From the NCBI GenBank assembly GCA_019247305.1, contig JAFAPC010000044.1:1-32541 (forward strand): a stretch of DNA of 32,541 bases, given 5' to 3'. Both the position numbers and the translations under genes were made by a program. Origin of the DNA: Pseudonocardiales bacterium. Lineage in GTDB: Bacteria; Actinomycetota; Actinomycetes; Mycobacteriales; Pseudonocardiaceae. The first letter of the stretch is position 1. The number at the start of each line of letters is the position of its first letter. A model generated the notes under the pieces. The model was given only the letters and a program-made list of their open reading frames with translations, ran no database searches and was not told the origin of the DNA. Positions 4,353-28,435 of the stretch are shown piece by piece.

Positions 4353-5713
4353 TGTTACACCGCAGCGCCGAGCAGATCGGCCGGACCGAGCTGGGGCCGC
4401 GTCCACTACCGCCGCTGGGTCCGCCGCGCACCCCCAGTGCACCGTCGGTGACGGACACCGTGCTGGACAGTGGGCTACGGGTGATCGCGGTACGGCGGCC
4501 CGCGGTGCCGATGGTGGAGGTGCGGCTGAGGATTCCCTTCGGCGGCACGGACCGCGCTCACCCGGCCAGCGCTGAGTTGCTCGCGATGACCCTGCTGCAC
4601 GGCACGCCGCAGCGGGACCGCTTCGCCATCGACCGGGTGCTGGCTGCCGTCGGTGGCGACCTGGCCGCTGGGGTGGATCCCGAGCACCTGTCGGTGTCGG
4701 GATCTGCGCTGGCCAGCGAGTTGGACGTGGTCCTTGAGGTCCTCGGCGACGCGCTCACGTCGGCCTCGTACGCCAGCGCTGAAGTGGCCCGGCAGCGGGA
4801 CCGGCTGGTGGAGCGGCTCATGGTGAACCGCTCCCAGCCACGGGTGATCGCCCGGGAGGCGTTGCAGCGGCGCCGCTACGGCGACCACCCGTTCGCCCGG
4901 GAGTGGCCGGAGGTCGACGACGTGGCCGCCGTGACGCCAGCGGCGTTGCGCGCCCTGCATCACCGCTCGGTGGTGCCGGGCGGTGCGGTCCTGGTACTGG
5001 TGGGCGACATCGTGCCGGCCAGCGCGGTGGACACGGTGTCATCGGTCCTGGCGGGCTGGCGATCGGACCACCCGGCCATCGAGATGGCGGCCTTGCCCGA
5101 GCTGACTGGCGCTGACCTGCAGCTGGTACATCGGGACAGTGCGGTGCAGTCGCAGCTACGGCTGTCCGCCCAGGCGGTGCCGCGCAACCATGAGCGCTAT
5201 CCGGCGCTGCAGGTGGCGAACCTGGTGTTCGGCGGGTATTTCTCCTCCCGCTGGGTGGAGAACATCCGGGAAGACAAGGGCTACACCTACAGCGCGCACT
5301 GCGGCTTCGAGTTCACCCGGCACGGGGCCACGCTCATCGCTGATGCGGACACCGCCAGTGAGGTCACTGCCGTCGCCCTGCTGGAGACCCGCTACGAGTT
5401 GGGCCGGCTTGCCCTGATGCCCCCCGACGAATCGGAGGTGGAGAGCGCGCGGCGCTACGCGATCGGGTCCCTCACCATCGCGACCTCCTCTCAGCGGGGG
5501 CTGGCTGGCAACCTCGCCACCCTGGCCACCCTCGGCTTGGACCTCGACTGGCTACTCACCCATCCCGGCCGGTTGCAAGCGGTCACGACCGGGCAGGTTG
5601 CCGAGGCCGCCGCCGAGTTCTTCGCCCCCCGGCGGTTCACCGGCGTGGTGGTGGGTGACGCCAAACGCCTGGCCGACCCGCTCGCCGCCCTGGGCGGTGT
5701 GGAACTGCCCTGA
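4352..5713 (+). CDS. M16 family peptidase-like protein, non-catalytic partner
   Basis: 453 residues from ATG 4352 (AGGAGG at 4342-4347, spacing 4; a GTG at 4349 is the alternative). The position of the zinc motif reads HPASAELLAMTLLHGT, without HxxEH, so zinc-dependent catalysis is not expected. The C-terminal half keeps the features typical of the partner subunit: FSSRWVENIREDKGYTYSA, matching the conserved R…Y substrate-binding motif of M16B proteins. The overlap with the upstream catalytic gene supports a heterodimer. The arrangement is common in actinobacteria. Substrate unknown. Confidence 0.92.
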   Translation: MLHRSAEQIGRTELGPRPLPPLGPPRTPSAPSVTDTVLDSGLRVIAVRRPAVPMVEVRLRIPFGGTDRAHPASAELLAMTLLHGTPQRDRFAIDRVLAAVGGDLAAGVDPEHLSVSGSALASELDVVLEVLGDALTSASYASAEVARQRDRLVERLMVNRSQPRVIAREALQRRRYGDHPFAREWPEVDDVAAVTPAALRALHHRSVVPGGAVLVLVGDIVPASAVDTVSSVLAGWRSDHPAIEMAALPELTGADLQLVHRDSAVQSQLRLSAQAVPRNHERYPALQVANLVFGGYFSSRWVENIREDKGYTYSAHCGFEFTRHGATLIADADTASEVTAVALLETRYELGRLALMPPDESEVESARRYAIGSLTIATSSQRGLAGNLATLATLGLDLDWLLTHPGRLQAVTTGQVAEAAAEFFAPRRFTGVVVGDAKRLADPLAALGGVELP

Positions 5714-5782
5714 CCTCCGGGTTAGGTCTGCGGGATGGTTGCCTGCCAGCGCCCGCGCCTCAGCTGGCAGATGCCCTCACGA

Positions 5783-6294
5783 TCAGCCCAGGCAGGGTCG
5801 CTCACGCCACCGTGTCCCGCCCAGGATGTCACCCAAGGGCTGGTCGTTCACGTTGCCCGCAACCAGAAACCGACCGATGACGCACGGGGACAGGTCACCG
5901 CTCAGGGTGATGGCGGCACGGCCGCGCCCGCACTGCCCGCACAATTCCGAGATATCGGGAATACCGCGTGCCGCACGCCCGACACCGCGTGTCCGGTCGG
6001 TGTGGATATCGGTCACGCCTACTTGAGTCCCTTGCCGAGCGCATAGCGGACTAGCTGGGGCAGCTCAAGATGAAGGGTCGGCTCTCCACCGATGAATTGA
6101 ACGGTGTCCATCGAAAGCGCCTGCGCATCATCGATAACACGTTCCCAGTCATCCGCAGTCATAGTGCCGTGATCGCCTTCGGGACTACTGTCGGCGTAGC
6201 AGTGTCTGCACTTCAGCGGACAGAAGCCAGTGATCTCCAGTTCCAGGAACGAGGTGCCGGCGGCCCGTAGCGATGGATCACTTTTCGGCTGCAT
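5783..6294 (-). pseudogene. Radical SAM/SPASM enzyme, internally deleted
   Basis: From ATG 6294 the product runs MQPKSDPSLRAAGTSFLELE…GFCPLKCRHCYADSSP, with the radical SAM CxxxCxxC cluster and the later GGEPTLH motif, then stops at 6019 after about 92 residues. The next part, in another frame from about 6016, encodes what looks like the C-terminal SPASM end: RTRGVGRAARGIPD, ELCGQCGRGRAAI, LSPCVIGRFLVAGN. Intact relatives are roughly 330-400 residues, so some 150-200 residues of the barrel are missing and the frame is broken at the joint. Such enzymes install crosslinks or other changes in ribosomal peptides and sit next to Xre/TPR regulators and PIMT-type methyltransferases in actinobacteria. 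Inactive here unless the deletion is an assembly artefact. Confidence 0.75.
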
Positions 6295-6359
6295 GAACCG
6301 GTGTCTTGTCTCGGCCAACACGGTGGCGTGCCTGGCCCAGTTGTGGTGCGCGGGTTCGC

Positions 6360-6371
6360 TAGGGTGATCCC
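6360..6371 (+). promoter_or_regulatory. Possible leaderless promoter of the Xre/TPR regulator
   Basis: TAGGGT at 6360-6365 fits an actinobacterial -10 (TANNNT) and lies six bases before the ATG at 6372, the spacing of leaderless transcripts. TTGTGG at 6341 is a poorly spaced -35. The 77-bp gap also has to serve the divergent radical SAM remnant. Confidence 0.4.
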
Positions 6372-7841
6372 ATGTGTGCTCTGGGGAGATCGCGGTGTCC
6401 GGACTGTGGGGTGCAGCTGCGTCGGGGCCGTGGGGCAGGTGAGCGGTGTGGTCCGTGCCAGCGTGAGGGGCTGCGGATCGTGCTGCCGGCGGGCTTGTAT
6501 GACCGTCCGGTGCTGGAGGACGCGTTGGCTCGCTGGGATTTCGCTCTGGTGTTCGTGGCGGTGCGGGCCGTTCAACGCCCCGAGCCGTGGAGTCGAGAGG
6601 TGTTGGGGGTGTTCCTGGGGTGGGAGGAACGCCGGATTGTGGCTCTTGAGACGGGCAGGCGCCCGTTGGTCGATGTGCGGGCGGTCGTGTGGGTGGCCAA
6701 CCAGCTCGGGATCCCGGCGGGCAAGCTGGGGTTCATCCACGGAGTTACTGTGGGTGGGCGGAGCAACACCGGGCGGGAGGGCAGTTGGGTGCATCGCAGA
6801 GACTTCGTGGAGCACGTCGCGGGGTTGACCGTCGCCACCGCCGGGTCCCCCGGGCTGGATGTCGACCGGGCCACCGCGTTGCTGCCCCAGGCTGAGCCCA
6901 CGGGCACTCGGCATGTCGGGGCAGCTGATGTGGCGGTCATCGATGAGGTCACCGCCATCTTCGTCCGCCAGGACTTCGCCACCGGATCGGGGCCGGTGCG
7001 AGACCACGCCGTGACCCACCTGAGCTCGGTGCTGCCGCTGCTGGACGCCCAGGTGAGCGACGCGCTGCGGCCCCGGTTGTACCTCGCCATCGCGCGGCTA
7101 GCCACCCAGGCGGGTTACCTGAGTTACGATAGTAGGCAGCACGACGCCGCCCGCGAGCTGTGGCTGATCGCACTCGAGGTCACCCGCACCGCACACCACC
7201 CGCTGGGGACCGACCAAACCGTCTTCGTGCTCTACGACCTGGCACAGCAGGCACTGGAACTCGGCCGCCCTGATGAGGCGCTGCGCCTGATCTACCTCGG
7301 CCATGCCACCGCAGCGGCCTCGCCGGCCGTTTCCGCAGCCACCATCAGTTGCCTGGCTGGCATCCAGGCCCGGGTCCACGCCGCCCGGGGCGACGTGGCG
7401 GGTTGTGATCGCGCGCTGGGCCAGGCCCTTGAGCACTTCAGCAGCATCGACCCGGCTCAGGAGTCATGGGCTGATTTCCTCGATGAAGCCCACCTCGCTT
7501 CCTTCCAGGGTGGGGCGCGCTATGAACTCGCCCTGGCCACCCGCGACCCGCGCGCCGCCGACCGGGCGGTGCCGCTGCTGCGCCAGGCCGTGGAGGGCTT
7601 CGGTCCCGGCTACGCCCGAGCCCGGGCGCTGTACCTACCGAAGCTTGCCGGGGCCCACGCGATCGCCGGGGACATCGACACCGCTGTCACCCTCGGCCAC
7701 CAGGCCATTGACTCAGTTACCGCGGTGCACTCCCCCCGAGCCTATGGCCGGCTACGGGTCCTGAACACCGCGCTGGAACCCCTGCACACCAGTGCGGGTG
7801 TCGCCGAGCTGCGCAAGCGGCTGCGCGTCACCGCCGTCTAG
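6372..7841 (+). CDS. Zinc-ribbon/Xre-HTH/TPR regulator
   Basis: 489 residues. The N-terminus has a zinc ribbon with CxxC pairs (C9/C12 and C26/C29), followed by a helix-turn-helix of Xre type at about 66-112 (WSREVLGVFLGWEERRIVALE, …VVWVANQLGIPAGKL) and a long all-helical C-terminal half (about 185-485) that reads as TPR repeats (e.g. QALELGRPDEALRLIYLGHA). This layout is typical of pathway regulators beside RiPP and other natural-product clusters in Streptomyces and Pseudonocardiaceae, where the TPR part is thought to sense a ligand or peptide. It is divergent from the radical SAM remnant and 118 bp upstream of the peptide gene. The start at 6372 is supported by the -10-like TAGGGT. Confidence 0.88.
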   Translation: MCALGRSRCPDCGVQLRRGRGAGERCGPCQREGLRIVLPAGLYDRPVLEDALARWDFALVFVAVRAVQRPEPWSREVLGVFLGWEERRIVALETGRRPLVDVRAVVWVANQLGIPAGKLGFIHGVTVGGRSNTGREGSWVHRRDFVEHVAGLTVATAGSPGLDVDRATALLPQAEPTGTRHVGAADVAVIDEVTAIFVRQDFATGSGPVRDHAVTHLSSVLPLLDAQVSDALRPRLYLAIARLATQAGYLSYDSRQHDAARELWLIALEVTRTAHHPLGTDQTVFVLYDLAQQALELGRPDEALRLIYLGHATAAASPAVSAATISCLAGIQARVHAARGDVAGCDRALGQALEHFSSIDPAQESWADFLDEAHLASFQGGARYELALATRDPRAADRAVPLLRQAVEGFGPGYARARALYLPKLAGAHAIAGDIDTAVTLGHQAIDSVTAVHSPRAYGRLRVLNTALEPLHTSAGVAELRKRLRVTAV

Positions 7842-7959
7842 GGGCTCCCGGGCGGTGATCCGATGACACAGCCACGTCCGCGGCAGGGGGAAGCGGTAGT
7901 CGATTCTGCGTCCTGCGCATCGTTGCGCACGAGGTGGTCAGTCCGGCACGGTGTGTCGC

Positions 7960-8100
7960 ATGGGCGCGCACGATAAGCCAACCCCGAACCCGGATCCGAT
8001 GGGCGACGCGCAGCTCCCGCCGGGCACGCTGCCCCCTCCAGCGCCGGAGCCCGGTAAGCACAGCAAGCCAGAGCACCCCGATAAGGGTGGCAAGGAGTAG
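7960..8100 (+). CDS. 46-residue Pro/Lys/Asp-rich peptide, candidate RiPP precursor
   Basis: ATG 7960 to TAG 8098-8100. The peptide has no cysteine, serine-rich or aromatic core; it starts MGAHDKPTPNPDPMGD, has a Pro-rich middle (LPPGTLPPPAPEPG) and ends in a charged tail (KHSKPEHPDKGGKE). Aspartates are at 5, 12, 16 and 41. Third codon positions are strongly G/C, as in real genes here. The stop overlaps the methyltransferase start by one base (TAGTG), which implies coupled translation and a shared function. Because PIMT-type enzymes act on aspartate (methyl ester, aspartimide, isoaspartate), it is a plausible substrate of the pamtide/imiditide kind; that is inference. No clear ribosome site precedes the ATG, and a GTG at 7951 is an alternative in-frame start. 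Confidence 0.6.
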   Translation: MGAHDKPTPNPDPMGDAQLPPGTLPPPAPEPGKHSKPEHPDKGGKE

Positions 8101-9293
8101 TGGCCGACGCCGAGGTGTTGCGTGGGCGTATGGTGGAGGGCTTGGTCCGGCAGGGTGAGCTGGACGAGCGGTGGCGAGCCGCGTTCACCGAGGTCGCTCG
8201 CCATGAGTTCATCCCGGACCTAGTGTGGCGCCACGACCCCGATGCGGGTGGTCTTGAGGACTTGGTGCCGTTGCGGCGCTGCGATGACCCGCAGGGCTGG
8301 TTGGAGCGCGCCTACGCCAATGCCCCGGTGACCACGCAGGTGGATGACGGCCACCCGATTGGTGAAGGGGGGTGTGGGTTCGAGGTCACTTCATCAGCAT
8401 CGATGCCGGCCGTGGTGGCGCAGATGCTGGCCGCGCTGGAGGCGCAGCCGGGGATGCGGGTGTTGGAGATCGGCACCGGCACCGGGTACAACGCGGCACT
8501 GCTCGCGCACCGGCTCGGCGCGGGCAACGTCGTAAGCGTGGAGGTGGACCCGGGCGTAGCCGAACACGCTCGCCACGCCTTAGTCGCCGCAGGGTTCGGC
8601 GCCGTAACGGTCGTGAGCGCTGATGGTGCGGAGGGCTACCTGCCGGGGGCGCCGTACGATCGGGTGATCTCCACCGCGGCGGTCGCTGAGGTGCCGTATG
8701 CCTGGGTGGCGCAGACCCGCCCAGGGGGACGGGTACTCACCCCGTGGGGCACTCCGTACTACCCGGGTGGCTTGCTGGCGCTCACTGTGCACCGTGCGGG
8801 CACCGCGACGGGCCGGGTCGTCGGGCCGGCGTCGTTCATGTGGCTGCGCTCCCAGCGCATCCCCCGCTACACCACGAGCCAGATCGTGCGCGGCGAGGAC
8901 ACGGTGCGGCTGTCCACCACGGACCTGCACCCCTGGTCGGTGGCCGGCGATACCCACGCGGCCACCGCCATCGGGCTGCGCGTGCCGAAGTGCGAGACCT
9001 TCTATCACCCGGAGAGCTCAGAGACCGGCACGCTGTATCTGGTGGATCAGTGGAGCCGCTCCTGGGCCACCCTCCACCTCACCACCGAGGCGCCCTATGA
9101 GGTACGCCAAAGCGGGCAACGCGCACTCTGGGACGAGGTACAGGCCGCATACCGGTGGTGGCTAGATATGGGTAAACCAGCCGTTGAGGCATGGCGGTTC
9201 ACCAACGACCCCAGCGGCCAGCGGATCGACCTTCTCCTGAGCGACGAGCCCTCCTCCGATGCGTCCACCGCGGTATTTCCAAGAGACGAGTAA
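8100..9293 (+). CDS. PIMT-type peptide/protein aspartyl O-methyltransferase
   Basis: 397 residues from GTG 8100 (AAGGAG lies just upstream, within the peptide gene; ATG 8130 is possible). The core is the protein-L-isoaspartate methyltransferase fold: a substrate-loop motif VTSSASMPAVVAQML at about 96-110, SAM motif I VLEIGTGTGYNAALL (121-135), the acidic VVSVEVD, and PYDRVISTAAV. A C-terminal extension (about 240-397, Trp-rich) is absent from housekeeping PIMT and typical of versions in RiPP clusters (FxLD-type lanthipeptides, graspetides, pamtides). These methylate peptide aspartates and drive aspartimide or isoaspartate formation. The neighbouring peptide is the likely substrate. Repair of aged proteins is less likely given the context and length. 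Confidence 0.88.
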   Translation: MADAEVLRGRMVEGLVRQGELDERWRAAFTEVARHEFIPDLVWRHDPDAGGLEDLVPLRRCDDPQGWLERAYANAPVTTQVDDGHPIGEGGCGFEVTSSASMPAVVAQMLAALEAQPGMRVLEIGTGTGYNAALLAHRLGAGNVVSVEVDPGVAEHARHALVAAGFGAVTVVSADGAEGYLPGAPYDRVISTAAVAEVPYAWVAQTRPGGRVLTPWGTPYYPGGLLALTVHRAGTATGRVVGPASFMWLRSQRIPRYTTSQIVRGEDTVRLSTTDLHPWSVAGDTHAATAIGLRVPKCETFYHPESSETGTLYLVDQWSRSWATLHLTTEAPYEVRQSGQRALWDEVQAAYRWWLDMGKPAVEAWRFTNDPSGQRIDLLLSDEPSSDASTAVFPRDE

Positions 9294-9858
9294 AAGCGGT
9301 AGCGGGATGATCTCGGTTTCGGTCAAGGTAGGACGGGAGCCTGCTATCAGGTGCGTTGTAGCTGGTCAGTCGGGAAAGGGAAGGCCCCCAGAGCGCCAGG
9401 GGGTGGCCAGTAGGAGAGCGGGATTAATGGGGGAGCCTACGCGGCCAGGCTTGTTGATCGGGTCTGTCGGTGAGACCGGGTATCAGCGGTAGAAGTCATT
9501 TGCATTGTCCGCCGCTACCGCAGCGCCCGACCCGGCCCGTCGGCTCTGACCCGATTCCGGGTACGGGCTGTGAACCCTCATCGTCTACGCCAACCTGTGG
9601 CACCGGAGTGTCGAGCCGTGGCGCCCCTACGGGAACGGCTTCTAGATCAACTAGGTCCTAGTAACTTTGAGGTTTGAGCCAAGTTTTTCTGCGGCGGACC
9701 GTGGGCAGGCCCGCTGCGCATCGGCGGACTCGGTGTCTGATGACCAGCCACGGGGGAGTGACACGGCCGATCACGATGGTGTGCGGCGGGTGGCGGCGGT
9801 GTGTCGATCACCTACCAGCCCGGCTCGGCTGGCCTGCTTGGCACCTCCCGCCTGGAAA
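9294..9858. other. Gene-free region, no recognised feature
   Basis: About 565 bp without a credible gene. Short open frames here lack ribosome sites and familiar motifs. The only pattern seen is a 13-bp palindrome ACTAGGTCCTAGT at 9650-9662, a possible operator or att-like site with nothing nearby to regulate. This begins the remnant-rich stretch that runs to about 11322. Confidence 0.5.
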
Positions 9859-9919
9859 GATCACTGTTTATGTGCCAAAACCGACACATTCTGTCGGTTT
9901 TGGCACATAAACAGTGATC
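9859..9919. terminator. Perfect palindrome with 28-bp arms (repeat copy B), terminator-like
   Basis: Arms 9859-9886 and 9892-9919 are exact reverse complements, with a five-base loop (CATTC). The inner part CCAAAACCGACA/TGTCGGTTTTGG contains an A-run and a T-run. On the minus strand it begins at the stop codon of the gene remnant at 9918-10181, so it may have been that gene's terminator. The same palindrome, degraded and split by the group II intron, is at 124-170. Confidence 0.7.
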
Positions 9920-10181
9920 ACCGCGTCCCTGCGCCTGCGTCCGGCTCGTGCCATGGCAGTGCCCACATGGGCAGCTCAGCCGCCCCGCTTGGCGGTCCAA
10001 GGCGACGCCTCACTAGACCCAAAGGGAACGCGTCCGCGTACTCGGCGAAGGCCCGCAGCCGCTTCTCCCGCTGGCATCCAGTCAGTGACGCTCGAGTAGC
10101 CCACCCTGTAGCGCGGCTGTCGTCAAGAGCCAGGCTGGCGATTCTGGAGAGCTCACAAGACAACCAGCCACCCGTTGTCAC
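9918..10181 (-). pseudogene. C-terminal remnant of an unidentified repeated gene
   Basis: The minus strand contains an open stretch with QREKRLRAFAEYADAFPLG and LVRRRLGPPSGAAELPMWA before a stop at 9918. A related stretch is at about 10935-11040 (read NQRATRLRALLTHADAFP) and part of the DNA also matches copy A at 124-300. The recurring pattern suggests the 3' end of a mobile or multicopy gene, not a functional protein. I do not recognise the family. Upstream sequence shows no start region or domain. Confidence 0.35.
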
Positions 10182-10208
10182 CTCAGGCCTTTCTAACTAA
10201 ATTTTAAT

Positions 10209-10316
10209 TTGCGAAAGCGCACGAGTTTGCCGTAACAGCATCCTTAGACCGACATTAATTCAATGGCAGGCGAACGGACCGGGGCCTCCAGGCAGGGAGA
10301 CTCCGGTCCGTTCGCC
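10209..10316 (+). promoter_or_regulatory. AT-rich promoter region and leader hairpin before small membrane gene
   Basis: The AT-rich stretch 10195-10260 stands out in this GC-rich window; TTGCGA (10209) and TAACAG (10233) with 18-base spacing are a possible promoter. Downstream, 10269-10282 and 10303-10316 form a perfect 14-bp stem (GGCGAACGGACCGG and its complement) with a 20-nt loop, 43 bp before the ATG at 10360. It could be a leader control element or a terminator of something lost. There is no T-run after it. Confidence 0.4.
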
Positions 10317-10359
10317 GCACGTCCACCGCCACCGGCCAGGCAACGAGAGGGCTAGCGAC

Positions 10360-10566
10360 ATGCCGAAACGTACCAAACGAAATCTCCCTGAGAACGAGCA
10401 CAGGCCCGAGCGGTTACGGATCTTGGTCGAAATTTTCCGCGCGTCGACCCCAGCCATATACTGCCGGAGCTGGGTGCCCTACGTGCGGCTCGTCTTGCTG
10501 CTCATCATCCTGCTGGGAATACTCGCTGTCGCACGTCTCCTGTTGGTCGGAAGCTGGTCGTGGTAG
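10360..10566 (+). CDS. Small single-pass membrane protein
   Basis: 68 residues with a basic N-terminus ([20 protein letters not shown]) and one membrane helix at about 43-63 ([20 protein letters not shown]). GAGAGG at 10345-10350 is well spaced from the ATG. No family is recognised. It lies alone among remnants behind a strong hairpin, so it could be the last intact gene of a decayed element. Expression is unproven. Confidence 0.5.
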
Positions 10567-10759
10567 CAGGTCCACACATGGTCCAGAAGACCTTGAACGG
10601 GTGGATCCGTCGCCGTCTGGCTGACTGTCGTCCGCACGCCGTGTTAGGGCTGCTCTGCTTAGGCCAAAGTTGCCGGGTGATAACGCGTGAACCCTCTCAC
10701 CCCTACCAGGTTCGCTCCACCGCCACGACGACACCGGGTCTCGGTGCTTGGGGCCGTCG

Positions 10760-10872
10760 CTGCGAGTGAACCGGCGCAGCACCTGCTCAGAGTCGGCCGT
10801 GCCCAGCTGCAGGGCGGTGGCGTAGTTGACCATCCGGTCGTACTGCTGGGTGATCAGATCCATGCCGATACC
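10760..10872 (-). pseudogene. Tn3-family transposase fragment
   Basis: The minus strand reads [20 protein letters not shown] then [14 protein letters not shown], which matches the internal TnpA segment of Tn3-family transposases (…QYDQMIKYATAIRLGTAEAEAILRRF). Only about 35 codons are kept, and no inverted ends are visible nearby. Evidence of an old transposon insertion in this intergenic region. Confidence 0.7.
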
Positions 10873-10883
10873 GCACGCAGGTC

Positions 10884-10917
10884 ACCGAACCATGCATTGA
10901 ACCGAACCATGCATTGA
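10884..10917. repeat. 17-bp tandem duplication
   Basis: ACCGAACCATGCATTGA is repeated exactly at 10884-10900 and 10901-10917, followed by three copies of GGCGT (10921-10935). It lies between the Tn3 fragment and repeat copy C. Confidence 0.85.
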
Positions 10918-10934
10918 CATGGCGTGGCGTGGCG

Positions 10935-11040
10935 TCCACCGTCACGGGAACGCGTCGGCGTGAGTGAGAAGAGCCCGCAGTCGCGTTGCCCGTTGGTTGA
11001 TCGTGGACAGGGCCAGGTTGAGACCAGACTCGTCTTTGCA
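10935..11040. repeat. Dispersed repeat, copy C (partial, diverged)
   Basis: GGGAACGCGTCNGCGT, GCCCGCAG and GCCAGG recur in the same order as at 10020-10135 (copy B). The palindrome part is absent. The minus strand reads NQRATRLRALLTHADAFP against QREKRLRAFAEYADAFP in copy B. Confidence 0.45.
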
Positions 11041-11089
11041 CACCTGCTGCCAACGCGGACATCACACCCGCGGACGCAACAACCCACCA

Positions 11090-11322
11090 CAGCCACCCCA
11101 ACTCTTGGATGCCTCAGTACTGGTGGCCTACGAGCGTGAGCTGACGCGGCGTGCCCGGCCTTCGTGGCGGCCATTACCGATGGTCGGATTTTGGTGGCGT
11201 CGGCGCTGTCTCTCGCGGTCGCCGCTGCCGAAGTGGCTGGTCAGCATCGCGAGCTGAGGTGGCTGGTGGAAGACCCCGAAGGGCCCCTGCAGGTTCCCGT
11301 CCATCTGGGAGTTATCAGATGA
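11090..11322 (+). pseudogene. PIN-domain-like remnant, frameshifted
   Basis: One frame reads LLDASVLVAYERELTRRARP (from 11102); the next continues from 11161 as FVAAITDGRILVASALSLAV…ELRWLVEDPEGPLQVPVHLG and stops at 11322. The first part resembles the start of PIN-type proteins (LDAS.LVAY) and the join needs a one-base shift. No start codon or partner antitoxin is seen. It overlaps the end of the next gene on the other strand by 8 bp. Confidence 0.35.
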
Positions 11323-11521
11323 AGTACAGGCCGACTGCCCAGCCCACGCTGGTGATGATGATCACCAAGATTGTCCAGAGGTAGACCTGGCGGGCGGTGA
11401 CCCAGATGCCGGGCGCAGGCGGCCGGGCAGGGGATGTGTCGTGCAGGTCGGCGGCGTGGCGCCGCATATGGTCAGTGAGCTCTCGTTCCCAGCGTTTCCG
11501 GTCGGTGATCTTCACCGGCAC
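11315..11521 (-). CDS. Small single-pass membrane protein
   Basis: 68 residues from GTG 11521 (GAGGGTG upstream). The N-terminal 40 residues are charged ([20 protein letters not shown]) and a single helix near the C-terminus ([20 protein letters not shown]) suggests a tail-anchored protein. It is divergent from uvrD2, with about 110 bp between starts. No known function; the position upstream of uvrD2 is held by a mycoredoxin gene in mycobacteria, and this is clearly different. Confidence 0.6.
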
Positions 11522-15461: not shown

Positions 15462-16532
15462 TCATCTAGCGCCACAGCCGCAGCGGGGATGCGCTGGCCG
15501 GGGGTGGTGACGCAAGGTGCCGCGCACCGGGTCCACCTCCAGGGTGGCGCCCCACGTCGGGGGGACCGGAAGACCAGCGGTTGGCCCGGCGAGTGCGGCG
15601 AGCACCTGCTCGGCGATCAGTGCGGCGGCAAGCTGGGTGCAGGCCAATCCGGCGGTCGGGATGTGTCCGACCAGTTGGGCCGCCAGTTTCGGCCAGGCGA
15701 GGTCCACCTCCGCCCGATGCAGCTCGGCGCAGCGCAGGCAGCTGCTGCGACCTGGCCACACCAGCGGGCCCACCACCGCGGCCCCTTCGTGGGCGTAGCC
15801 GATCAGATGCGGAGTCCGGGTCGTCAGTAGCTCGCTCACCATCGCCGGCTCCGCAACCACCACGTCGGACAGGACGATCAGGTCTGGCTGGCGGCCAGCG
15901 GCGACGGTGAGGTCCGGGGCGCAGCGGCGCACGGCGTCGTCGGCCGCCTCGGCGCGGGATCTGCCTAGGTCGCCAGCTTGGTATCCGGTGCCCAGGTCGG
16001 CGGCGGTGACCGAGCCGCGGGCGTGCACCGTGACGTGACCAACCCCGGCTGTGGCGAGCGCGGTGGCCACAGCTACCGCCACCCGGCCGGATCCCCTTAC
16101 CTGCACGGCAGCGTCGTGCCGCTGGCGCAGTACGTGTCTCGTCGGATGGGTGGTGTGGACTGACCAGTTGGCTGCCTCGGTGGCCAGCGCGACGCGGTGC
16201 CAGCCTGGTGGGCTGTGGTCGGCGGCGCAGGCGTCTTGCACCAGGCCACAACGGTGCAGGTCGATGAGCATCGCGAGGGCGTCGCGACGGGAAGCTCCGG
16301 CGCTGCGCGCCTCGGTGAGCAGCTCGGCCGTGCTGCGGATGCCGTCCATCCGCTTGAGTAGCGCGGCTAAGGGTTCCGGGAGGTCGTCGAGGACCATGGC
16401 GCGTTGTGGGTCCAGCCCGAGCTGCAGGCAGGTCGGGGAGCGCCAGAGGACGGCTCGGCCCGGCGCAAGTCGCAGCCGTTCGGGAAGGCCGGGCGGCGGA
16501 GCTTCGGATCCGGCGGTGGCGCTTGAGGTCAT
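15462..16532 (-). CDS. ThiF/E1-like protein, TOMM cyclodehydratase-partner type
   Basis: 356 residues from ATG 16532 (AGGA eight bases upstream; ATG 16541 possible). The N-terminal third is a small helical domain (LLKRMDGIRSTAELLTEA…) resembling a winged-helix. The C-terminal part has a Rossmann start (VRGSGRVAVAVATALATAG) and paired cysteines SCLRCAELHR and HPRCGCGA, likely a structural zinc site as in E1-like proteins. It matches the Rv3196-type gene of the conserved block. The canonical adenylating residues are not clear, so catalysis is doubtful. It overlaps the kinase's possible ATG by 4 bp and lies 85 bp after the DUF2342 gene. Confidence 0.75.
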   Translation of the reverse strand: MTSSATAGSEAPPPGLPERLRLAPGRAVLWRSPTCLQLGLDPQRAMVLDDLPEPLAALLKRMDGIRSTAELLTEARSAGASRRDALAMLIDLHRCGLVQDACAADHSPPGWHRVALATEAANWSVHTTHPTRHVLRQRHDAAVQVRGSGRVAVAVATALATAGVGHVTVHARGSVTAADLGTGYQAGDLGRSRAEAADDAVRRCAPDLTVAAGRQPDLIVLSDVVVAEPAMVSELLTTRTPHLIGYAHEGAAVVGPLVWPGRSSCLRCAELHRAEVDLAWPKLAAQLVGHIPTAGLACTQLAAALIAEQVLAALAGPTAGLPVPPTWGATLEVDPVRGTLRHHPRPAHPRCGCGAR

Positions 16533-16617
16533 GCCCGCCATCCTGGGCGATTCGCCCTGATGGCTCAACTGCGTGTCCACAGGCCGTCCACAGGTGTGGA
16601 CAACCTGTGGACACCGA

Positions 16618-18012
16618 TCACGCCGTGGGGCGCGCGGGCGGATCCTCGCCGTGGTCCTGGGGAGCCTCAGGAGGTGGCTGTTCGCGGGGGGCGTCCGCTG
16701 CCATCGTGCGCTCCAGCGCAGCGATCGGGTCATCCAGATCGGCGGCGTGCCGCGCGGCCCGATCGACGAACGCGGCGGGATCATTGAGGTCCTCGGTCGT
16801 GGGCAGCAGGTCCGGATGGGCCCACAGCGCATCCCGGTCCTCGATGCCGTGTTGCTCGGTGAGCCGTCGCCACAGCTCGCTGGCAGCGCGGAGCTTGCCT
16901 GGCCGCAGCTCCAAACCGACCAGCGTGGCGAAGGTATGCTCGGCGGGACCTCCGGAGGCGCGTCGCCGTCGCAACGTTTCGCGGAGCGCTGGGGAACCGG
17001 GGAGTCGCTCGCCCAACGCGTCCGCGACGACGACATCGACCCAGCCTTCGATCAGGACAAGCAGGGTTTCCAGCCGGCTCAGGGCAGCCTTCTGCTCAGG
17101 ACTGTGCCGCTGCTCGAGCAGACCGGAGGAGATCAGCTGGTCCATGCTTTGGAGGTCGGTCGGGTCGACCTGACGGGCGAGCTCCTGGAGCGCGTCGGTA
17201 TCCACCTGGATGCCCTGGGCGAATTCCTCGACGGTGGCCAGCAGCCGCTGGCGCAACCACGGCACGTGCCCGAATAAGCGGTGGTGCGCAGCCTCCCGAG
17301 CGGCAAGGAAAACAGTCACTTCGGAGCTCTTGCGGCTCAGTCCGGAGGCGAACTGCTCGATGGCGGCTGGCAGCAGCGCTGCCACGCCCAACGGTCCCAG
17401 GGGGAGCCCGATCTCGGTGGAGGTGAGGACCTCGCCACCCAGCTGGGCCAGCGCCGAGCCGAGCTGCGAGCCGAACGCCATACCACCCATCTGTTGCACC
17501 ATCGCCACCAGGGGACCGGCTGCTTGAGCAACGTCGCTGGGCAGCGCATCGATCCACGAGCGGGCCATCCGGCGGGCTACCGGGTCGCACAACCGCTGCC
17601 AGGTGGGCAGAGTCTGCTCCACCCAGTCCCGCGGCGCCCACGCGGCGCTGCTGTGCGTCCCGGCTGGCAGCGCGGTCGCTGGGTCCAGCCACACCTCGGC
17701 CAGCCGCAGGGCATCGGTGATCGCGGTGGCCTGCCGGACCGACGGCAGCCCAGTCGTGGACAGCTTCTGCACCGCCATCTGCTTGGCCAGGTCATAGTTC
17801 ACCGGGCCACCGCCCCCCACGGCGCCCTGGCTGAGCATCTGCCCCAGCTGGGTGAGCATCTGGCCCAGGGCACCAACGTCGAAGCCGCTAGCTCCGAAGG
17901 CGACAAACGGGTTGGCCGGGTCGGGACTGCTGCTGCCAGCGTCGTCGGGGGAGCTCCCCCGATCGGGGTCCCGAGGGTCCTGGGAGCCGAAGCCGAAAGG
18001 CATATCGCTCAT
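16618..18012 (-). CDS. Zincin-like DUF2342 protein
   Basis: 464 residues from ATG 18012 (GTGGAG upstream). The N-terminus is Gly/Ser/Pro/Asp-rich (1-45). The middle is helical, with an EAAHHRLFGHVPWLR segment (metal-binding-like histidines and glutamate) and a later LLVLIEGWVDVVV. This matches the 'zinc-dependent metalloprotease' / F420-associated DUF2342 family (Rv3195). Peptidase activity is predicted only from fold. The C-terminus is acidic and Pro-rich. It is divergent from the PDZ/Lon gene and starts the leftward operon with the ThiF-like and ABC1 genes. Confidence 0.88.
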   Translation of the reverse strand: MSDMPFGFGSQDPRDPDRGSSPDDAGSSSPDPANPFVAFGASGFDVGALGQMLTQLGQMLSQGAVGGGGPVNYDLAKQMAVQKLSTTGLPSVRQATAITDALRLAEVWLDPATALPAGTHSSAAWAPRDWVEQTLPTWQRLCDPVARRMARSWIDALPSDVAQAAGPLVAMVQQMGGMAFGSQLGSALAQLGGEVLTSTEIGLPLGPLGVAALLPAAIEQFASGLSRKSSEVTVFLAAREAAHHRLFGHVPWLRQRLLATVEEFAQGIQVDTDALQELARQVDPTDLQSMDQLISSGLLEQRHSPEQKAALSRLETLLVLIEGWVDVVVADALGERLPGSPALRETLRRRRASGGPAEHTFATLVGLELRPGKLRAASELWRRLTEQHGIEDRDALWAHPDLLPTTEDLNDPAAFVDRAARHAADLDDPIAALERTMAADAPREQPPPEAPQDHGEDPPARPTA

Positions 18013-22933: not shown

Positions 22934-24310
22934 TCAGGGGTCCCTCGGTGTCTCCTGGGCACTCTCGCTGAGAGCGTCGGCGATCATTCGGCCGATGAGT
23001 TCGGCGGCGGCTCGGTCGTGGCCTGTGGAGTGGTGTGAGTAGATCTGGAAGGTGACGGTGGGGTTGGCGTGCCCGACGCGATCGCTGAGGATTTTCGGCT
23101 CGACACCGGAGTTGAGCGACAGCGTCGAGTAGGTGTGGCGGACGTCGTGTAGCCGGATTCGTCGTGCTCCGGCGGCATCGACGAGTCGGTTGAACCGGTC
23201 GGTCACGGTGTCGGGGTGGGGCCGGCGGCCGTCTTCCCACACGAACAGCCACCCGTCCTCGGGGTAGGCGGTTCCGAATGCTTTCTGTTCGTCGTCGAGC
23301 ATCTCCAGGTGTCGGCGCAGCGCGGCCACGGTGAAGGCATCCAGGGAGACTGTCCGGCGGCCTGCCTGGGTCTTGCCGTCCGATTCCTCAGCGCGTCCTG
23401 CGACCGAGATCAGGGTGTCGTCAACGGTGAGGGTTCGCGCGGTGAGATCGAGCCCCTCGCGGCGCACTCCGAGGAGCTCGGATCGCCGCATCCCCGTGGT
23501 GGCGGCCAGAACCCACATCCCGGCGAACCGATCGGTTTGGGCGAGCCTGAGCCACTGGCTGAGCTCCTCTAACGACCAGGGTTGTGGTGTGGCCCGGCGT
23601 CGGTGCCGTTCCCGAGGAAGACTCGCGTGCTCCGCCGGATTAAACACCACATAATCCCAGGCGACAGCGTCCGAGAACGCACGGTGGATCAGCCTGTGGA
23701 TGTTGCGGACGGATTTAGGTGAGAGGCCGGCGTGGTAGTCAGTGGGTATCCGGCCGCGCCGGTACCGTGTGACGGCTTCCTTGGCTGATTGGTAGGACGT
23801 GCCGCAAGCGGTGCTGAGTTCCATCGGCGTCGGTCCGCGCCCGTTGTGGCGGTGGTGATGCGTCTTCCAGTACTCGTACATTGTGCTATTCGTGTCTCGT
23901 TTGAGTCTGCCTGCTTCCAGTAGGTGGACGTAGAACGCGTTGAGCACGGGTACCGTGATATCTTGGAGGCGCCGGCCACCAATGCTGGGGAGGATGTAGG
24001 CGGCGACGTTGGTGGAATAATTCGTGTAAGCGGACGGCTTTAATGCGTATTTGACGCTGGCGAGCCACTCGGTAAAAAACTGCTCGACCGTGCGCGCGGC
24101 GGGCTTGACCCTGCGTCCCCCGTCCATCTCAGCGTGCTTCTTGAGTGCGCCGGCCCAGGCTTCCTCCTCGGAGGCGAATCCGCCTTTGTTGAAGCGTTCC
24201 CGTTTCCCGGTGAGTATGTCGGGCTCACCATAGATCGTGTAGGCCCATTTCGTGCCTCGCTGGTAGACGGTGATCCCAGGCATGCGCCGCCGGTTCGGCG
24301 TGGGTGTCAT
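22934..24310 (-). CDS. Tyrosine site-specific integrase of the AICE
   Basis: 458 residues. An N-terminal arm-binding domain (KWAYTIYGEPDILTGKRERF) and core-binding region precede the catalytic domain, where R275 (TGMRRSELLGVR), K313, H388 and R391 (LHDVRHTYS), H414 (RVGHANP) and nucleophile Y424 (IYSHHSTG) are all visible. Unusually, about 55 residues (137-192) including TPMELSTACGTSYQSAKEAV are inserted before the LSPKSVRNIHRLIHRAF segment, where relatives have a short loop. It recombines the element into the initiator tRNA. Its ATG overlaps the xis stop by 4 bp (ATGA). Confidence 0.95.
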   Translation of the reverse strand: MTPTPNRRRMPGITVYQRGTKWAYTIYGEPDILTGKRERFNKGGFASEEEAWAGALKKHAEMDGGRRVKPAARTVEQFFTEWLASVKYALKPSAYTNYSTNVAAYILPSIGGRRLQDITVPVLNAFYVHLLEAGRLKRDTNSTMYEYWKTHHHRHNGRGPTPMELSTACGTSYQSAKEAVTRYRRGRIPTDYHAGLSPKSVRNIHRLIHRAFSDAVAWDYVVFNPAEHASLPRERHRRRATPQPWSLEELSQWLRLAQTDRFAGMWVLAATTGMRRSELLGVRREGLDLTARTLTVDDTLISVAGRAEESDGKTQAGRRTVSLDAFTVAALRRHLEMLDDEQKAFGTAYPEDGWLFVWEDGRRPHPDTVTDRFNRLVDAAGARRIRLHDVRHTYSTLSLNSGVEPKILSDRVGHANPTVTFQIYSHHSTGHDRAAAELIGRMIADALSESAQETPRDP

Positions 24311-24564
24311 GCCACGCTCCGGTTATCGGCCGTCGAGATGAGCTCGTGCAACAGTGCTGTCACGATGTAGACGCGACCGCCGAGGCGCCTGGTGGGTAAG
24401 TCGCCTGCCGCCGCGTAGCGGTACGCCGCTGATCGGCTAATCCCCAGCACCGTCGCCGCCACCGAGACCGTGATCAGCGGCGGAAGCCCCGTCAGCGTCG
24501 CGGCTGTGCCCCTCGCACCTCCTTTCTCCGCCGAGCTCACAGGCGATGACGGGGGGGTGGTCAT
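24307..24564 (-). CDS. Excisionase/MerR-like helix-turn-helix protein (Xis)
   Basis: 85 residues; ATG 24564 overlaps the upstream stop (ATGA). The HTH is at about 32-55 (TVSVAATVLGISRSAAYRYA) followed by LPTRRLGGRVYIVTALLHEL, the helix-17/excisionase signature. It bends att DNA and directs the integrase to excise. The position immediately before int is the standard AICE arrangement. Confidence 0.9.
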   Translation of the reverse strand: MTTPPSSPVSSAEKGGARGTAATLTGLPPLITVSVAATVLGISRSAAYRYAAAGDLPTRRLGGRVYIVTALLHELISTADNRSVA

Positions 24565-26120
24565 TGGATGCCTCCGACTGGGGTGGGGTGCCTCGGTTCG
24601 TCCGCTACTGCCGCTACTGCCGCTACCGTGCAGGTCAGAGGGGTAGCGGCTACTGGTTGGAGATCCGCTACCGCTACTGGTGCCGCTACCTGGTCACCTC
24701 GGGTGGTAGCGGAGGCCTCCGCTACCGGGATGGTGTCCGCTACCCCTCTGACCTGGGCGGTAGCGGTGGTAGCGGTGGTAGCGGTGGTAGCGGCTGAGGG
24801 CAGGTAGCGGCTCCAGGCGTCAGCGAGTCCGTCGTCGCCGTCGATGCGGTAGCCCTTGACCACCGCGCCATTGGGAAGTTTGAGGTTTTTGGGTTTGACG
24901 CCGTAGCGGTCGAGGAGCCGGGCGAGGTGGCGGGCGTCGAGGGGTTTGCCCTCAAGGTCTCCCCAGGGTGCTTCATCGAGGCTGGTGAGGGTGGTGAGGA
25001 TGTCCGTGGTCCGCAGCCGCCCCGTGCCAGCCTGAGTGAAGACGTCTCGCAGGTCGGCCAGGAGTCGAATCCCGTCGGAGGTCATCACCGGTCCGGCGTC
25101 GAGGACAAAGTGTCGGCAGGCACGGTGGGCGGTGGTAGGCCAGTGGCCGCCGGCGGTCTCGGCAAGAGCGAGGAGCGGTTCCCAGATTTCGGCAGGTCGA
25201 TCGGTGACACCCTCAGGCATCGTGGGGAGGACACCGCTTAGCTGAGGTCGTACTGAGTCGATCCAGGTGGTCAGGTGGTCCCGGAGGGGCCGGGCATCCC
25301 GTGCGACGTGTCGTTCTCGGAAGGGTTCGACGGGTTCATCAGGGCGGCGTCGGCGCATGTGAATGGTGATCGCCCGGGTGGTAATGGTGGACGGCATGGC
25401 ACCGGCGATCCCGGCCAGCGCGGCGGGGGCGTAGACGGGAAACCGCTCCACTTTTATGTTTTTGGCGTCCCCGACACAGCGGGCGATCGTGGCTGAGCGC
25501 TTATACCCGGCGTTGAGCAGGCCCCGAAGATCCTCGTGATTTCCCCCGTTTTTGGGGTTGAAAATCGCGTCCACTTCGTCGAACAGGATCGTGATAGGTC
25601 CCAGAGACACGAGCCGAAAGAGTGCGGCGGGGGTGGCGGAGATGGTCATCTCAGGAGCCCGGACCAAGTATTGGGCAACCTCTAACACCCGGGTTTTGCC
25701 GGAGCCGGGCTCGGCGGAGTCCAACACGAGGCGGGGGGTGACATAGAACTGCTCCGCGGCGTGGGTGTGGGCATACCACAACGCCAGGGTCGGCGCGCAG
25801 TGCTCGGAGGGGAACACCGAGAACCGGGTGATGAACGCGGTCAGCTCGTCGAGGATCTCGTGACCAGTCCGGGCAGTGGCGGTGGCTGATGGTGGGTGCA
25901 GCCAGGTCAGCGGCTGGGCCGGGGTGGCCTCGGGTAGTGACTCATCCGGGCCCCCGCCCTGATCAGGGAGGGGTGGTGTGGCCTGCTGGGTGTGCCAGGT
26001 GTGTTGGCAGGTCTCGGAGCAGAAGTCGTCGGACACCGAGGACCCCCGGGGTTGCCCGCAGTGCTGGCAGGTGGGGGTGTCGAGCAGGTGGTCGAGGGTG
26101 GTGGTCAGGTTCGGGCTCAT
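24561..26120 (-). CDS. DUF3631 ATPase, replication protein of AICE
   Basis: 519 residues from ATG 26120 (overlapping the PrimPol stop by 4 bp). N-terminal zinc ribbon with TCQHCG…DDFCSETC at 18-38; an ATPase domain with Walker A P138-G-S-G-K142-T (SAEPGSGKTRV) and Walker B ITILFDEVDAIF (D181, E182); then the DUF3631 C-terminal part. DUF3631 proteins often sit next to PrimPol genes and probably act as replicative helicase/initiators. The last 70 residues are a low-complexity Ala/Thr/Val stretch encoded by the GTAGCGG iteron cluster. The zinc ribbon resembles that of TraB in this element. Confidence 0.88.
   Translation of the reverse strand: MSPNLTTTLDHLLDTPTCQHCGQPRGSSVSDDFCSETCQHTWHTQQATPPLPDQGGGPDESLPEATPAQPLTWLHPPSATATARTGHEILDELTAFITRFSVFPSEHCAPTLALWYAHTHAAEQFYVTPRLVLDSAEPGSGKTRVLEVAQYLVRAPEMTISATPAALFRLVSLGPITILFDEVDAIFNPKNGGNHEDLRGLLNAGYKRSATIARCVGDAKNIKVERFPVYAPAALAGIAGAMPSTITTRAITIHMRRRRPDEPVEPFRERHVARDARPLRDHLTTWIDSVRPQLSGVLPTMPEGVTDRPAEIWEPLLALAETAGGHWPTTAHRACRHFVLDAGPVMTSDGIRLLADLRDVFTQAGTGRLRTTDILTTLTSLDEAPWGDLEGKPLDARHLARLLDRYGVKPKNLKLPNGAVVKGYRIDGDDGLADAWSRYLPSAATTATTATTATAQVRGVADTIPVAEASATTRGDQVAAPVAVADLQPVAATPLTCTVAAVAAVADEPRHPTPVGGIQ
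24601..24815. repeat. CCGCTAC/GTAGCGG iteron cluster, candidate replication origin
   Basis: About 15 copies of the 7-mer CCGCTAC or its complement GTAGCGG occur in both orientations, including four in a near-tandem run of GGTAGCGGT at 24758-24790. A perfect 19-bp inverted pair (CAGGTCAGAGGGGTAGCGG at 24631-24649 and its complement at 24737-24755) frames the centre. They are in the coding 3' end of the DUF3631 gene, as plasmid origins often are in rep genes. One further copy is at 24903. Confidence 0.75.
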
Positions 26121-27019
26121 GCGGCGCTCCGGGGGCGAGTGCGGCGGGGATTCGCTATCCCGGCGGTCAGGCTGGTGGTGATGACGCGGGTGATTTCGTG
26201 GGGTGTGCAGTCGCAGTCGGCGCTGATGAGGGCGTGGGCGGCGGTGGTGAGCTCGGCCTGGGCGGTGTGGTGGTCGAGGAGGTCGGCGCCGACGAGTTGA
26301 CCGAGGGCGTAGGCGGCGCGGCACAGGGCCGCGTTGTGTCGGCCTGGGGGTGCGGTGCGGACCCGGTGGCACTCACCCTCTAGGGCGGCGGCGACGTAGC
26401 CGTGGGGGTTGGTGGTGGCCGCCACAGCGGGCGTTGAGCGCCCCGGAGCGGGTGTGGGGGTGAGGGCCTGGTGTAACCAGGTGGGCAACTGCGCAGGCTC
26501 CCGGTCGTCCACCAGCTCGTATCCGTGTGGGGGGAGGGGGTTGCCGGGGGCGAGGACGTAGCCACCGTGGGCGCGGGTGTCGATCTTCCATCCGATCGTG
26601 CTCTGGGTGTTGCGCAGGGTGGTCCCGGGTGGGGTGGTGTAGTAGAGGTGCCAGCCTCCGGAGGGGGTGCGCACGGTGTAAGTCGGGGTGAGCGTGGTAC
26701 TCCGCTCCCGGGCGAGGGCTCGCAGGACGCCGGCCCCGGTGGTGATCCCCCGAGCGGCCCAGGGCTCGGGGATGGGTTCCCCCGGTTTGGGGGCGTCGAG
26801 GTCGATCACGATGAGGCCGGAGGGGCCGGTCGCGATGCCGATCGCATACGGGGCCTGGCGCCACCAGTCGTGGATCTGCTCCGGGTTGGTGCTGGCCCGG
26901 GCCTCCCACTGATCGAGGATCGGGGGTTTCTTGCGGTAGGGGGTGATCGGGTGCACGTGCCAGCTCCGCTCAGCCAGACGCAGCGCCTGCTCGCGCAGGG
27001 CCGTGGTGGTGGTTATCAC
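26117..27019 (-). CDS. Bifunctional DNA primase/polymerase (PrimPol)
   Basis: 300 residues from GTG 27019 (GAGAGGAG about 8 bases upstream). The first 190 residues carry the AEP-type primase-polymerase motifs: GIATGPSGLIVIDLDAP (D73, D75 metal ligands), GGWHLYY (H124) and DTRAHGGYVLAPG. The C-terminal third is helical. It primes and may copy element DNA during autonomous replication. It is overlapped by the DUF3631 ATPase, forming the replication module. About 220 bp upstream holds two hairpins and an SSB-tail remnant. Confidence 0.93.
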   Translation of the reverse strand: MITTTTALREQALRLAERSWHVHPITPYRKKPPILDQWEARASTNPEQIHDWWRQAPYAIGIATGPSGLIVIDLDAPKPGEPIPEPWAARGITTGAGVLRALARERSTTLTPTYTVRTPSGGWHLYYTTPPGTTLRNTQSTIGWKIDTRAHGGYVLAPGNPLPPHGYELVDDREPAQLPTWLHQALTPTPAPGRSTPAVAATTNPHGYVAAALEGECHRVRTAPPGRHNAALCRAAYALGQLVGADLLDHHTAQAELTTAAHALISADCDCTPHEITRVITTSLTAGIANPRRTRPRSAA

Positions 27020-27057
27020 TGGGTGAGCTCCTCTCGCTTGTGTGCAGGACGGGGAGG

Positions 27058-27111
27058 GTGGTGCCGCACCCTCCCCGCGTTGGGGGTGAGCACGGGGGGG
27101 TGCGGCACCAC
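27058..27111. promoter_or_regulatory. Strong hairpin in leader of PrimPol
   Basis: Arms 27058-27071 and 27098-27111 (GTGGTGCCGCACCC and complement), 14 bp, 26-nt loop; the base is 38 bp from the PrimPol start. It may be a terminator/attenuator between ssb and primPol or a replication-related structure. A related hairpin is at 27181-27230. Confidence 0.55.
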
Positions 27112-27121
27112 GGGGACCGGT

Positions 27122-27240
27122 TTAGAAGGGGGGCTCATCCCCGGGGGTCCTTTTGGTCGGGTGCTGGATGTGGGGTGGTGGTGGCGCACCCTGTTGTGGC
27201 CCGGGGTGATGGGCCGGTGGGGTGCGCCACTGCTTGGGGT
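27122..27240 (-). pseudogene. Second SSB-like tail (C-terminal tip remnant)
   Basis: The minus strand reads KQWRTPPAHHPGPQQG, then APPPPHIQHPTKRTPGDEPPF and a stop at 27122, that is, a typical Pro/Gln-rich SSB linker and acidic PPF tip. It is in a different frame from the ssb stop at 27244, so it looks like the older tail of ssb or a duplicated end. A hairpin with 11-bp arms (27181-27191, 27220-27230, with inner GGCCC/GGGCC) lies within it. Confidence 0.45.
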
Positions 27241-27243
27241 GGT

Positions 27244-27698
27244 TTAGAAGGGGGGTTTATCCCCGGTATCCGGGTTGGCTGGTGTGGTGGTCCAGGGGTC
27301 GGTGTTTCCCTCACCGGTCGTGGTCGCGGTGGTGCGGGTGGTTTTGTTGACGGTGACGGTGGCCCATTTCAGGCTGGCGCCGATTTCGGTAGCATCAACC
27401 TGGAAGCTGGTGCGTGTTTCTCCGTCGCTGGTTTCCCAGTCGTGTTGCCGGAGGACACCGGTGAGGAGGATGCGGGTGCCTTTGGTGAGGGATTCGGCGA
27501 GGTTTTCGGCGGCTGGCGCCAGATCGAGCACCGGAGGAATGTGGCACCGTTGTCGACCCATTCGCCTTTGGTGGGGTCGTAGCGGCGGTCGTTGGCGGCG
27601 ACGGTGAAGTTCGCGACCGCGGCCCCGGTGGCGGTGTAGCGCAGTTCGGGGTCAGCAACCAACGTGCCAGCAATCGTGATTTCTGGTAATCCAGCCAT
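27244..27698 (-). pseudogene. ssb: Single-stranded DNA-binding protein, frameshifted
   Basis: From ATG 27698 (AAGGA seven bases upstream) the first 62 residues read MAGLPEITIAGTLVADPELR … NGATFLRCSIWRQ, a clear SSB OB-fold start. The frame then fails; shifting one base near 27512 restores AENLAESLTKGTRILLTGVL … EIGASLKWATVTV and the tip DTGDKPPF with stop at 27244. A missing base in a CCAGCCGCC run explains it. SSB coats lagging or transferred single strands and recruits partners through the tip. Either a recent null allele, an error in the sequence, or, least likely, programmed frameshifting. Confidence 0.85.
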
Positions 27699-27730
27699 GA
27701 GAGAATCCTTTTTCCTGGTTCGGGTGGTGG

Positions 27731-28402: not shown

Positions 28403-28435
28403 GGTGGTCCTTCCGGGTTGTCCGGCCACGATCAT

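Follow-up and report, generated by a model that had tools for sequence, protein, structure and literature searches.

The window analysed here (the whole stretch of 32,541 nucleotides) carries two overlapping genes, a short open reading frame followed by a methyltransferase gene (Table 1). The short frame opens with ATG, ends with TAG at 8098-8100, and encodes the 46-residue peptide MGAHDKPTPNPDPMGDAQLPPGTLPPPAPEPGKHSKPEHPDKGGKE, which contains 28% Pro, no Cys, and four Asp (residues 5, 12, 16, and 41). An alternative GTG at 7951, three codons 5' of the ATG, would prepend V-C-R. The GTG start codon of the enzyme shares one base with the peptide stop codon. Both the coordinates and the translation agree with the original prediction of a Cys-free Pro/Lys/Asp-rich peptide overlapping a PIMT-type gene by one base.

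Table 1. Coordinates of the peptide-enzyme pair, of other features in the window, and of related loci (positions refer to the window unless a locus is named).
Feature	Position	Strand	Remarks
Short repeated element	124-268; ~9642-10016		no clear gene; also at L024, L043, and L013 (several contigs, same assembly)
Radical-SAM fragment, 100 aa	6019-6321	-	truncated gene
NsdA-family TPR-like regulator	6372-7841
Precursor peptide gene, 46 aa	7960-8100	+	predicted modified residue Asp16, codon 8005-8007; related peptides in G006, G003, and G007
N-terminal box M-G-A-H	7960-7971	+	start-[GSA]-x-H in 50/68 type I precursors, a count favored by the choice of starts
G-D-A-Q, predicted imide site	8002-8013	+	aligns with DG(H/Q/R) of relatives, NG in one subclade
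C-terminal box P-G-K-H-S	8050-8064	+	[GPSE][KRQ]H past residue 12 in 34/35 genus and 15/33 outside precursors
PIMT-like L-aspartyl O-methyltransferase (PAMT), 397 aa	8100-9293	+	start overlaps peptide stop (TAGTG)
SAM-binding motif EIGTGTG	8466-8486	+	residues 123-129
WXXXGXP motif of RiPP-associated PIMTs	9159-9179	+	WLDMGKP, residues 354-360
ThiF-like gene	15462-17036	-	partial ThiF match
Tyrosine integrase and FtsK-like protein	22934-32541
L045 (contig C167)	G000:C167:4000-16000		flanks of the window
Longer piece of the radical-SAM gene	L045, 5626-6476	-	adjoins a C-terminal PAMT remnant
L020	G000:C150:90000-102000	-	Nramp frame just before a PAMT
Asn-Gly precursors			L108, L118, L125, L126, L114, L028, L019 (both strands), L154

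The enzyme matched the PCMT domain PF01135 with 112.9 bits. Its best curated family was TIGR04188 ("ATP-grasp peptide maturase system methyltransferase"), at 325.6 bits and below the cut-off of 380, and TIGR04364 (lanthipeptide/FxLD methyltransferase) reached 155.8 bits, far below its cut-off of 320. In an AlphaFold2 model (mean pLDDT 90) the C-terminal extension was predicted as a folded domain, and the best PDB match of the model was the PIMT of T. maritima, 1DL5 (383 alignment columns; TM 0.52 by query and 0.64 by target). The C-terminal part was predicted in the order strand-helix-four strands-helix, which is the order given for this domain in PMC10787088. The WXXXGXP motif is described for RiPP-associated PIMTs in PMC13001092; across 38 sequences, counting the window enzyme, W354 and P360 were invariant and G358 occurred in 90% or more. 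The expectation of a PIMT-type methyltransferase with a C-terminal extension was thus borne out, by the PF01135 match and, for the extension, by the predicted model.

The 46-aa ORF by itself was weak evidence, because 84 ORFs of at least 30 aa overlap positions 5500-11500 and profile searches gave no family match for the peptide; a protein search with the peptide as the query returned only itself. Related peptides were recovered by reading the DNA upstream of the enzyme relatives, where the ORF with the highest share of D/E/K/G/P/H was chosen for the relatives in the G006 and G003 set. The closest enzyme relatives within the genus had 79% identity in the genome G006 and 74-75% in G003, with identical rows for the G003 contig C52 and the Pseudonocardiales MAG contig JAFATA010000045.1. 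The enzyme of G006 is preceded by MGTHDMPPPQPDPSSDGRPPPGQPPPSPPDPGKHSKPDPPPRKDGK and that of G003 by MGAHDKPDPKPDSTGDGQYPQGRPIPPEPDPGKHSKPDPDPPEPDPQR. The nearest precursors have in common M-G-x-H-D, a G/S-D-[G/A]-[Q/R] site, a Pro stretch, and PGKHSKP, and the stop/start overlap is kept in the window and the two relatives (TAGTG, TAGTG, and TAATG). In three pairwise comparisons of the peptide genes, which are not independent, 46-50% of the differences fell at third codon positions (binomial p 0.014-0.049), and against the two relatives third-position changes outnumbered those at other positions.

When 12 other window proteins were compared with ~14 kb around each relative (E 1e-6), no match was found besides the peptide itself; the G006 and G003 contigs end ~640 and ~290 bases upstream of the peptide. 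The peptide and the enzyme therefore stay together while their neighbors change. On the type I side, defined as a phmmer score of at least 220 to the window enzyme, 37 of 49 loci had an upstream ORF with at least 55% D/E/K/G/P/H, compared with 3 of 64 loci scoring 80-180, and two of these three exceptions are second halves of broken type I genes. Homologous peptide genes upstream of related methyltransferases, which had been proposed as the check, are thus present in two other species of the genus, and the outcome that was to speak against the pair, no conserved peptide beside homologous enzymes, did not hold upstream of the relatives. Judged from the sequences, this conservation beside related enzymes lifts the predicted ORF above chance.

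The position of the enzyme within its family was then taken from a quickly built tree with 134 rows, 125 of them different, including nine ATP-grasp-linked enzymes of the window's assembly. One branch (SH-aLRT 99) parts 40 peptide-linked from 48 ATP-grasp-linked enzymes, the other 46 rows bearing neither label, and none of 500 shuffles gave a split as low. The window enzyme lies on the peptide side and groups with peptide-linked enzymes of Streptomyces, Nocardiopsis, Streptomonospora, and Nonomuraea; SpaM and NmaM stand outside the comparison set. This bears on the view that the window holds a graspetide (ATP-grasp) locus after loss of its ATP-grasp gene, with which the best curated family, a graspetide methyltransferase, and the short ATP-grasp matches beside other paralogues in the window's assembly would agree. 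However, the branch sets the window enzyme apart from all 48 ATP-grasp-linked enzymes, neither the ATP-grasp model TIGR04187 nor GRASP_targ TIGR04186 matched on the window's contig, and the 10 GRASP_targ matches of the assembly are all on other contigs. Such a loss is very improbable.

The copy number of the enzyme family was compared across genomes. The window's assembly, a 5.2 Mb draft (87.7% complete, 6.87% contamination), gave 29 TIGR04188 matches at E 1e-60 with fragments counted, and the other ten genomes of the genus gave 37 (a sister genome), 13, 12, 6, 3, 1, 1, 1, 0, and 0. A TIGR04188 match was found in 97 of 394 Actinomycetes (window's assembly included) in a survey that scored at most four candidates per genome. 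Only the 20 other genomes reaching four were searched again in full, so the rest could hold a few more than counted. The highest count among these 20 was 11 (G419), the top outside the window's genus in the genomes searched. The fetched loci, covering 39 of 48 PAMT matches in G003, 12 of 14 in G006, 10 of 15 in G010, and 6 of 11 in G007, contained 49 type I-side loci in the genus, of which 20 are in G003, 15 in the window's assembly, and 6, 4, 2, 1, and 1 elsewhere. From the 107 matches listed in the 20 genomes, 40 outside loci were sampled among those below 345 bits; 26 had a type I-like precursor in the analyst's judgement, two a Cys-rich one, and 12 neither. Seven of a further 14 loci gave an outside precursor, and one was the G003 relative.

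In the window's assembly, the contig C167 (L045) repeats the flanks of the window at 83-91% DNA identity; the regulator, the peptide, and the full enzyme are absent there, and the ORF at the window-equivalent site appears transporter-like by eye. The assembly contains some sequence of a second, closely related organism. We rejected the copy number as a mixed-strain artefact: with alignments of 150 aa or more considered, a single PAMT pair within the assembly exceeded 80% identity, and most PAMT copies are likely true paralogues. Paralogue groups recur across the species of the genus and some copies appear disrupted, so that the family apparently follows a birth-and-death mode of evolution.

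An intact precursor ORF was found at 13 of the 15 type I loci of the window's assembly, at one of the 15 (L023) the precursor frame is seemingly broken, and at the remaining one (L020) a box resembling the precursor C-terminus is fused to an Nramp transporter. In the whole set of 49, the 12 loci lacking an upstream ORF of the expected make-up include some whose precursor frame looks broken, and single copies may therefore be dead. The window pair could be such a copy, a family member in decay and no longer productive, and the site on C167, syntenic but emptied of regulator, peptide, and enzyme, would fit that course. Against this, both window genes are open, their overlap is kept, the catalytic and WXXXGXP motifs are intact, and third-position changes predominate over others in comparison with the two relatives, which makes decay of this pair unlikely.

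The product of the upstream gene matched the NsdA-family TPR-like regulators (NF053720, 234.7 bits, cut-off 75). It had been read as a zinc-ribbon/Xre/TPR regulator, and the TPR-like part stood; the HTH match was weak (PF13560, E 0.0086, below the cut-off), and the zinc ribbon consists of just two CxxC pairs read in the sequence. We considered the regulator as a part of the unit and rejected it, since no regulator match was found beside the relatives in G006 (L162) and G003 (L163), within the short upstream reach of their contigs, and NsdA-like regulators occur at 3 of the 15 type I loci of the window's assembly. The peptide-enzyme unit seems not to include it. In a survey of ORFs of at least 100 aa within ~5 kb of the 15 loci, contig ends permitting, no protease or transporter recurred in at least three loci, the NsdA-like regulator being the sole exception; the matches at two loci were mostly the same genes counted twice on contigs holding two loci.

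A scan of 17 window ORFs revealed no intact known RiPP maturase besides the methyltransferase. The window also holds a truncated radical-SAM gene, a possible second player. The longer piece of the same gene at L045, adjoining a PAMT remnant, suggests a decayed rSAM-PAMT pair at that locus; 249 rSAM-PAMT pairs are reported in PMC10787088. A further possible second player is the ThiF-like gene (41.7 bits, cut-off 28.1). These two doubtful genes could matter against the reading of a lone modifier. The integrase and the FtsK-like protein likely belong to a mobile element that has integrated downstream, and no connection between it and the peptide-enzyme pair was seen. The short repeated element lies at two places in the window and is shared by several contigs of the assembly.

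We infer that the enzyme acts on the window peptide. Among 33 genus pairs, peptide and enzyme distances correlated (Mantel r 0.66, 0 of 5000 permutations); for the 80% of enzyme pairs lying farthest apart r was only 0.17, and 14 of 33 pairs shared nearest neighbors. The correlation is thus carried mainly by close relatives. The enzyme might instead target another protein, the small ORF being merely a coupled leader ORF. In keeping with this, PAMTs encoded next to FHA proteins are proposed in PMC10787088 to modify those FHA proteins, and at L020 the C-terminus of an Nramp transporter runs in frame into a precursor-like C-terminal box, while the nearest Nramp (G006, 569-aa frame) matches up to residue 584 of 622 and is without the tail. 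The conservation of the peptide sequence itself, the boxes common across families, and the correlated distances, weak as these are among the most distant pairs, argue against another target, which is quite unlikely.

For the modification of the peptide, Asp16 in GDAQ is the best candidate. A residue before Pro offers no backbone NH for imide closure. Asp16 was favored over the other three: Asp12, with Pro as its next residue, cannot form an imide; Asp5 precedes Lys and lies within the box at the N-terminus; and the two closest relatives have not retained Asp41. The conserved Asp that was to be looked for was found at this position, which holds Asp in 7 and Asn in 3 of 10 aligned precursors. 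D-[GA]-[QHKRNSY] was present in 23/35 genus and 24/33 outside precursors (shuffled means 13.1 and 11.5, maxima 22 and 21), only mildly above the expectation from composition. The wider pattern [DN][GA] is missing in 3/35 genus and 5/33 outside precursors, and in several others it occurs at non-aligning places.

By analogy with SpaM and NmaM, the PIMT-like enzyme would methylate Asp16 of the linear 46-residue peptide on its side chain, the methyl ester would close to the aspartimide, and water would open this ring to isoaspartate or aspartate. Imide closure should be slower with Ala rather than Gly after Asp16. Charge contacts may steer the recognition of the peptide by the enzyme, as reported for NmaA/NmaM. 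We consider it probable that the window holds a two-gene type I pamtide locus whose enzyme follows this route at Asp16.

Both ends of the peptide carry His boxes. Start-[GSA]-x-H was found in 26/35 genus and 24/33 outside precursors, compared with at most 4 and 5 among shuffled peptides; the start codons were picked by the analyst, often at this very box, which favored the count, and 49 of the 50 precursors with the box begin with ATG or GTG. For the C-terminal pattern [GPSE][KRQ]H past residue 12, the shuffled maximum was 13 in each set. After Met excision, NH2-x-x-His forms an ATCUN copper/nickel site. Precursors with [GSA]-x-H would therefore present a putative copper/nickel site once Met is removed, and literature searches joining ATCUN with aspartimide or with ribosomally synthesized peptides showed no prior claim. 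In NmaA the first 20 residues were removable with the modification kept, at lower levels once 15 were gone, as reported in PMC13001092. A metal-clamped hairpin, with paired G-x-H boxes around the Asp, was considered and not favored, given this tolerance of NmaA for the loss of its first 20 residues.

The site residue varies within the family. Asn-Gly stands at the predicted site in 9/35 genus precursors. One subclade of 10 enzymes, supported at 97/92, has nine precursors with Asn-Gly where others have Asp-Gly, and one with Asp-Gly. Of the 33 genus precursors in this comparison, 7 that lacked a clear site, or matched [DN][GA] only at an unaligned place, were omitted from both groups. Close relatives read SDGQVP, SNGQVP, and GNGQVP at the site, and the outside precursor L205 likewise has Asn-Gly. 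The subclade keeps the catalytic, SAM, and WXXXGXP motifs with two exceptions, a V in place of P and an N in place of G. Deamidation of Asn-Gly proceeds via a succinimide. Because this intermediate is shared, the Asn-Gly pairs may use the enzyme on isoaspartate, reaching the same imide by deamidation. The review PMC13001092 also states that Asn-Gly passes through the same succinimide. A wider and doubtful proposal is that selection in this paralogous array would keep a succinimide or isoaspartate at [Asp/Asn]-[Gly/Ala], not a methylated Asp. In the Asn-Gly subclade the imide would then arise by spontaneous deamidation and the methyltransferase would act on isoaspartate, as if a repair enzyme had been recruited into a cycle that shapes the product. 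In the same peptides the N-terminal Gly/Ser-x-His would add an ATCUN site after Met removal. The natural Asp-to-Asn swap at the predicted site would make the useful product (ester, imide, or isoaspartate) directly testable.

The precursor had been thought to differ from known ones, and a linear Pro-rich core had been regarded as unusual for PIMT homologues. Neither view could be upheld. Type I pamtides/imiditides are described in PMC10787088 and PMC13001092 with linear precursors of ~45 aa rich in Gly, Pro, and Asp (Lys), adjoining a solitary PIMT homologue that bears a C-terminal domain, and the window peptide fits them in length and composition. The window pair combines a precursor gene with a PIMT homologue, and no primary enzyme of another class was found among the 17 window ORFs, nor an ATP-grasp on the contig. 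The conserved Asp16 lies near Pro/Gly. Charged residues are conserved at both precursor ends (the start-[GSA]-x-H and [GP][KR]H boxes and an acidic/basic tail), and the enzyme has WXXXGXP and, by its predicted model, a C-terminal domain of >100 aa as in TmPIMT.

Because of WLDMGKP, the 1DL5-like predicted model, and the tree position with peptide-linked enzymes, we assign the pair to the predicted type I pamtides/imiditides, with SpaM and NmaM compared via their published descriptions. It would thus be of a known kind and not a new RiPP class; from the proposal of a new aspartate-modified RiPP, the unit with its sole visible modifier and the conserved Asp16 remain, and the novelty of the kind does not. 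Two expressed type I members are named in the review PMC13001092, and the window pair adds a new group to this class. Tens of RiPP-type aspartyl methyltransferases in single draft genomes of this one genus also provide a natural matched series of peptides and enzymes for substrate specificity.

Other known systems share parts of this arrangement. The graspimiditides (fuscimiditide and amycolimiditide, with TIGR04188 methyltransferases) have a methyltransferase family homologous to the window enzyme, whereas the window has neither an ATP-grasp enzyme nor a GRASP_targ precursor and falls on the opposite side of the tree. Type II pamtides/cysimiditides likewise have a two-gene locus with a PAMT, but their precursors have two CxxCxGxG motifs, and the window precursor has neither Cys nor this motif. 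The lanthipeptide-linked LanSA/FxLD methyltransferases have the PIMT domain in common with the window enzyme, while a lanthipeptide core is absent here and the window ORFs scanned include no lanthipeptide enzyme. The closest likeness is to SpaA-SpaM of Streptomyces sparsogenes and NmaA-NmaM of Nonomuraea maritima, which, like the window, consist of two genes, with a ~45-aa linear Cys-free Gly/Pro/Asp/Lys precursor, a conserved Asp, and a lone PIMT homologue with a C-terminal domain and WXXXGXP. The window pair differs from them in having D-A instead of D-G at the site, in being one of many paralogous pairs in one assembly, and in belonging to a group whose close relatives were found in two further genomes of its genus.
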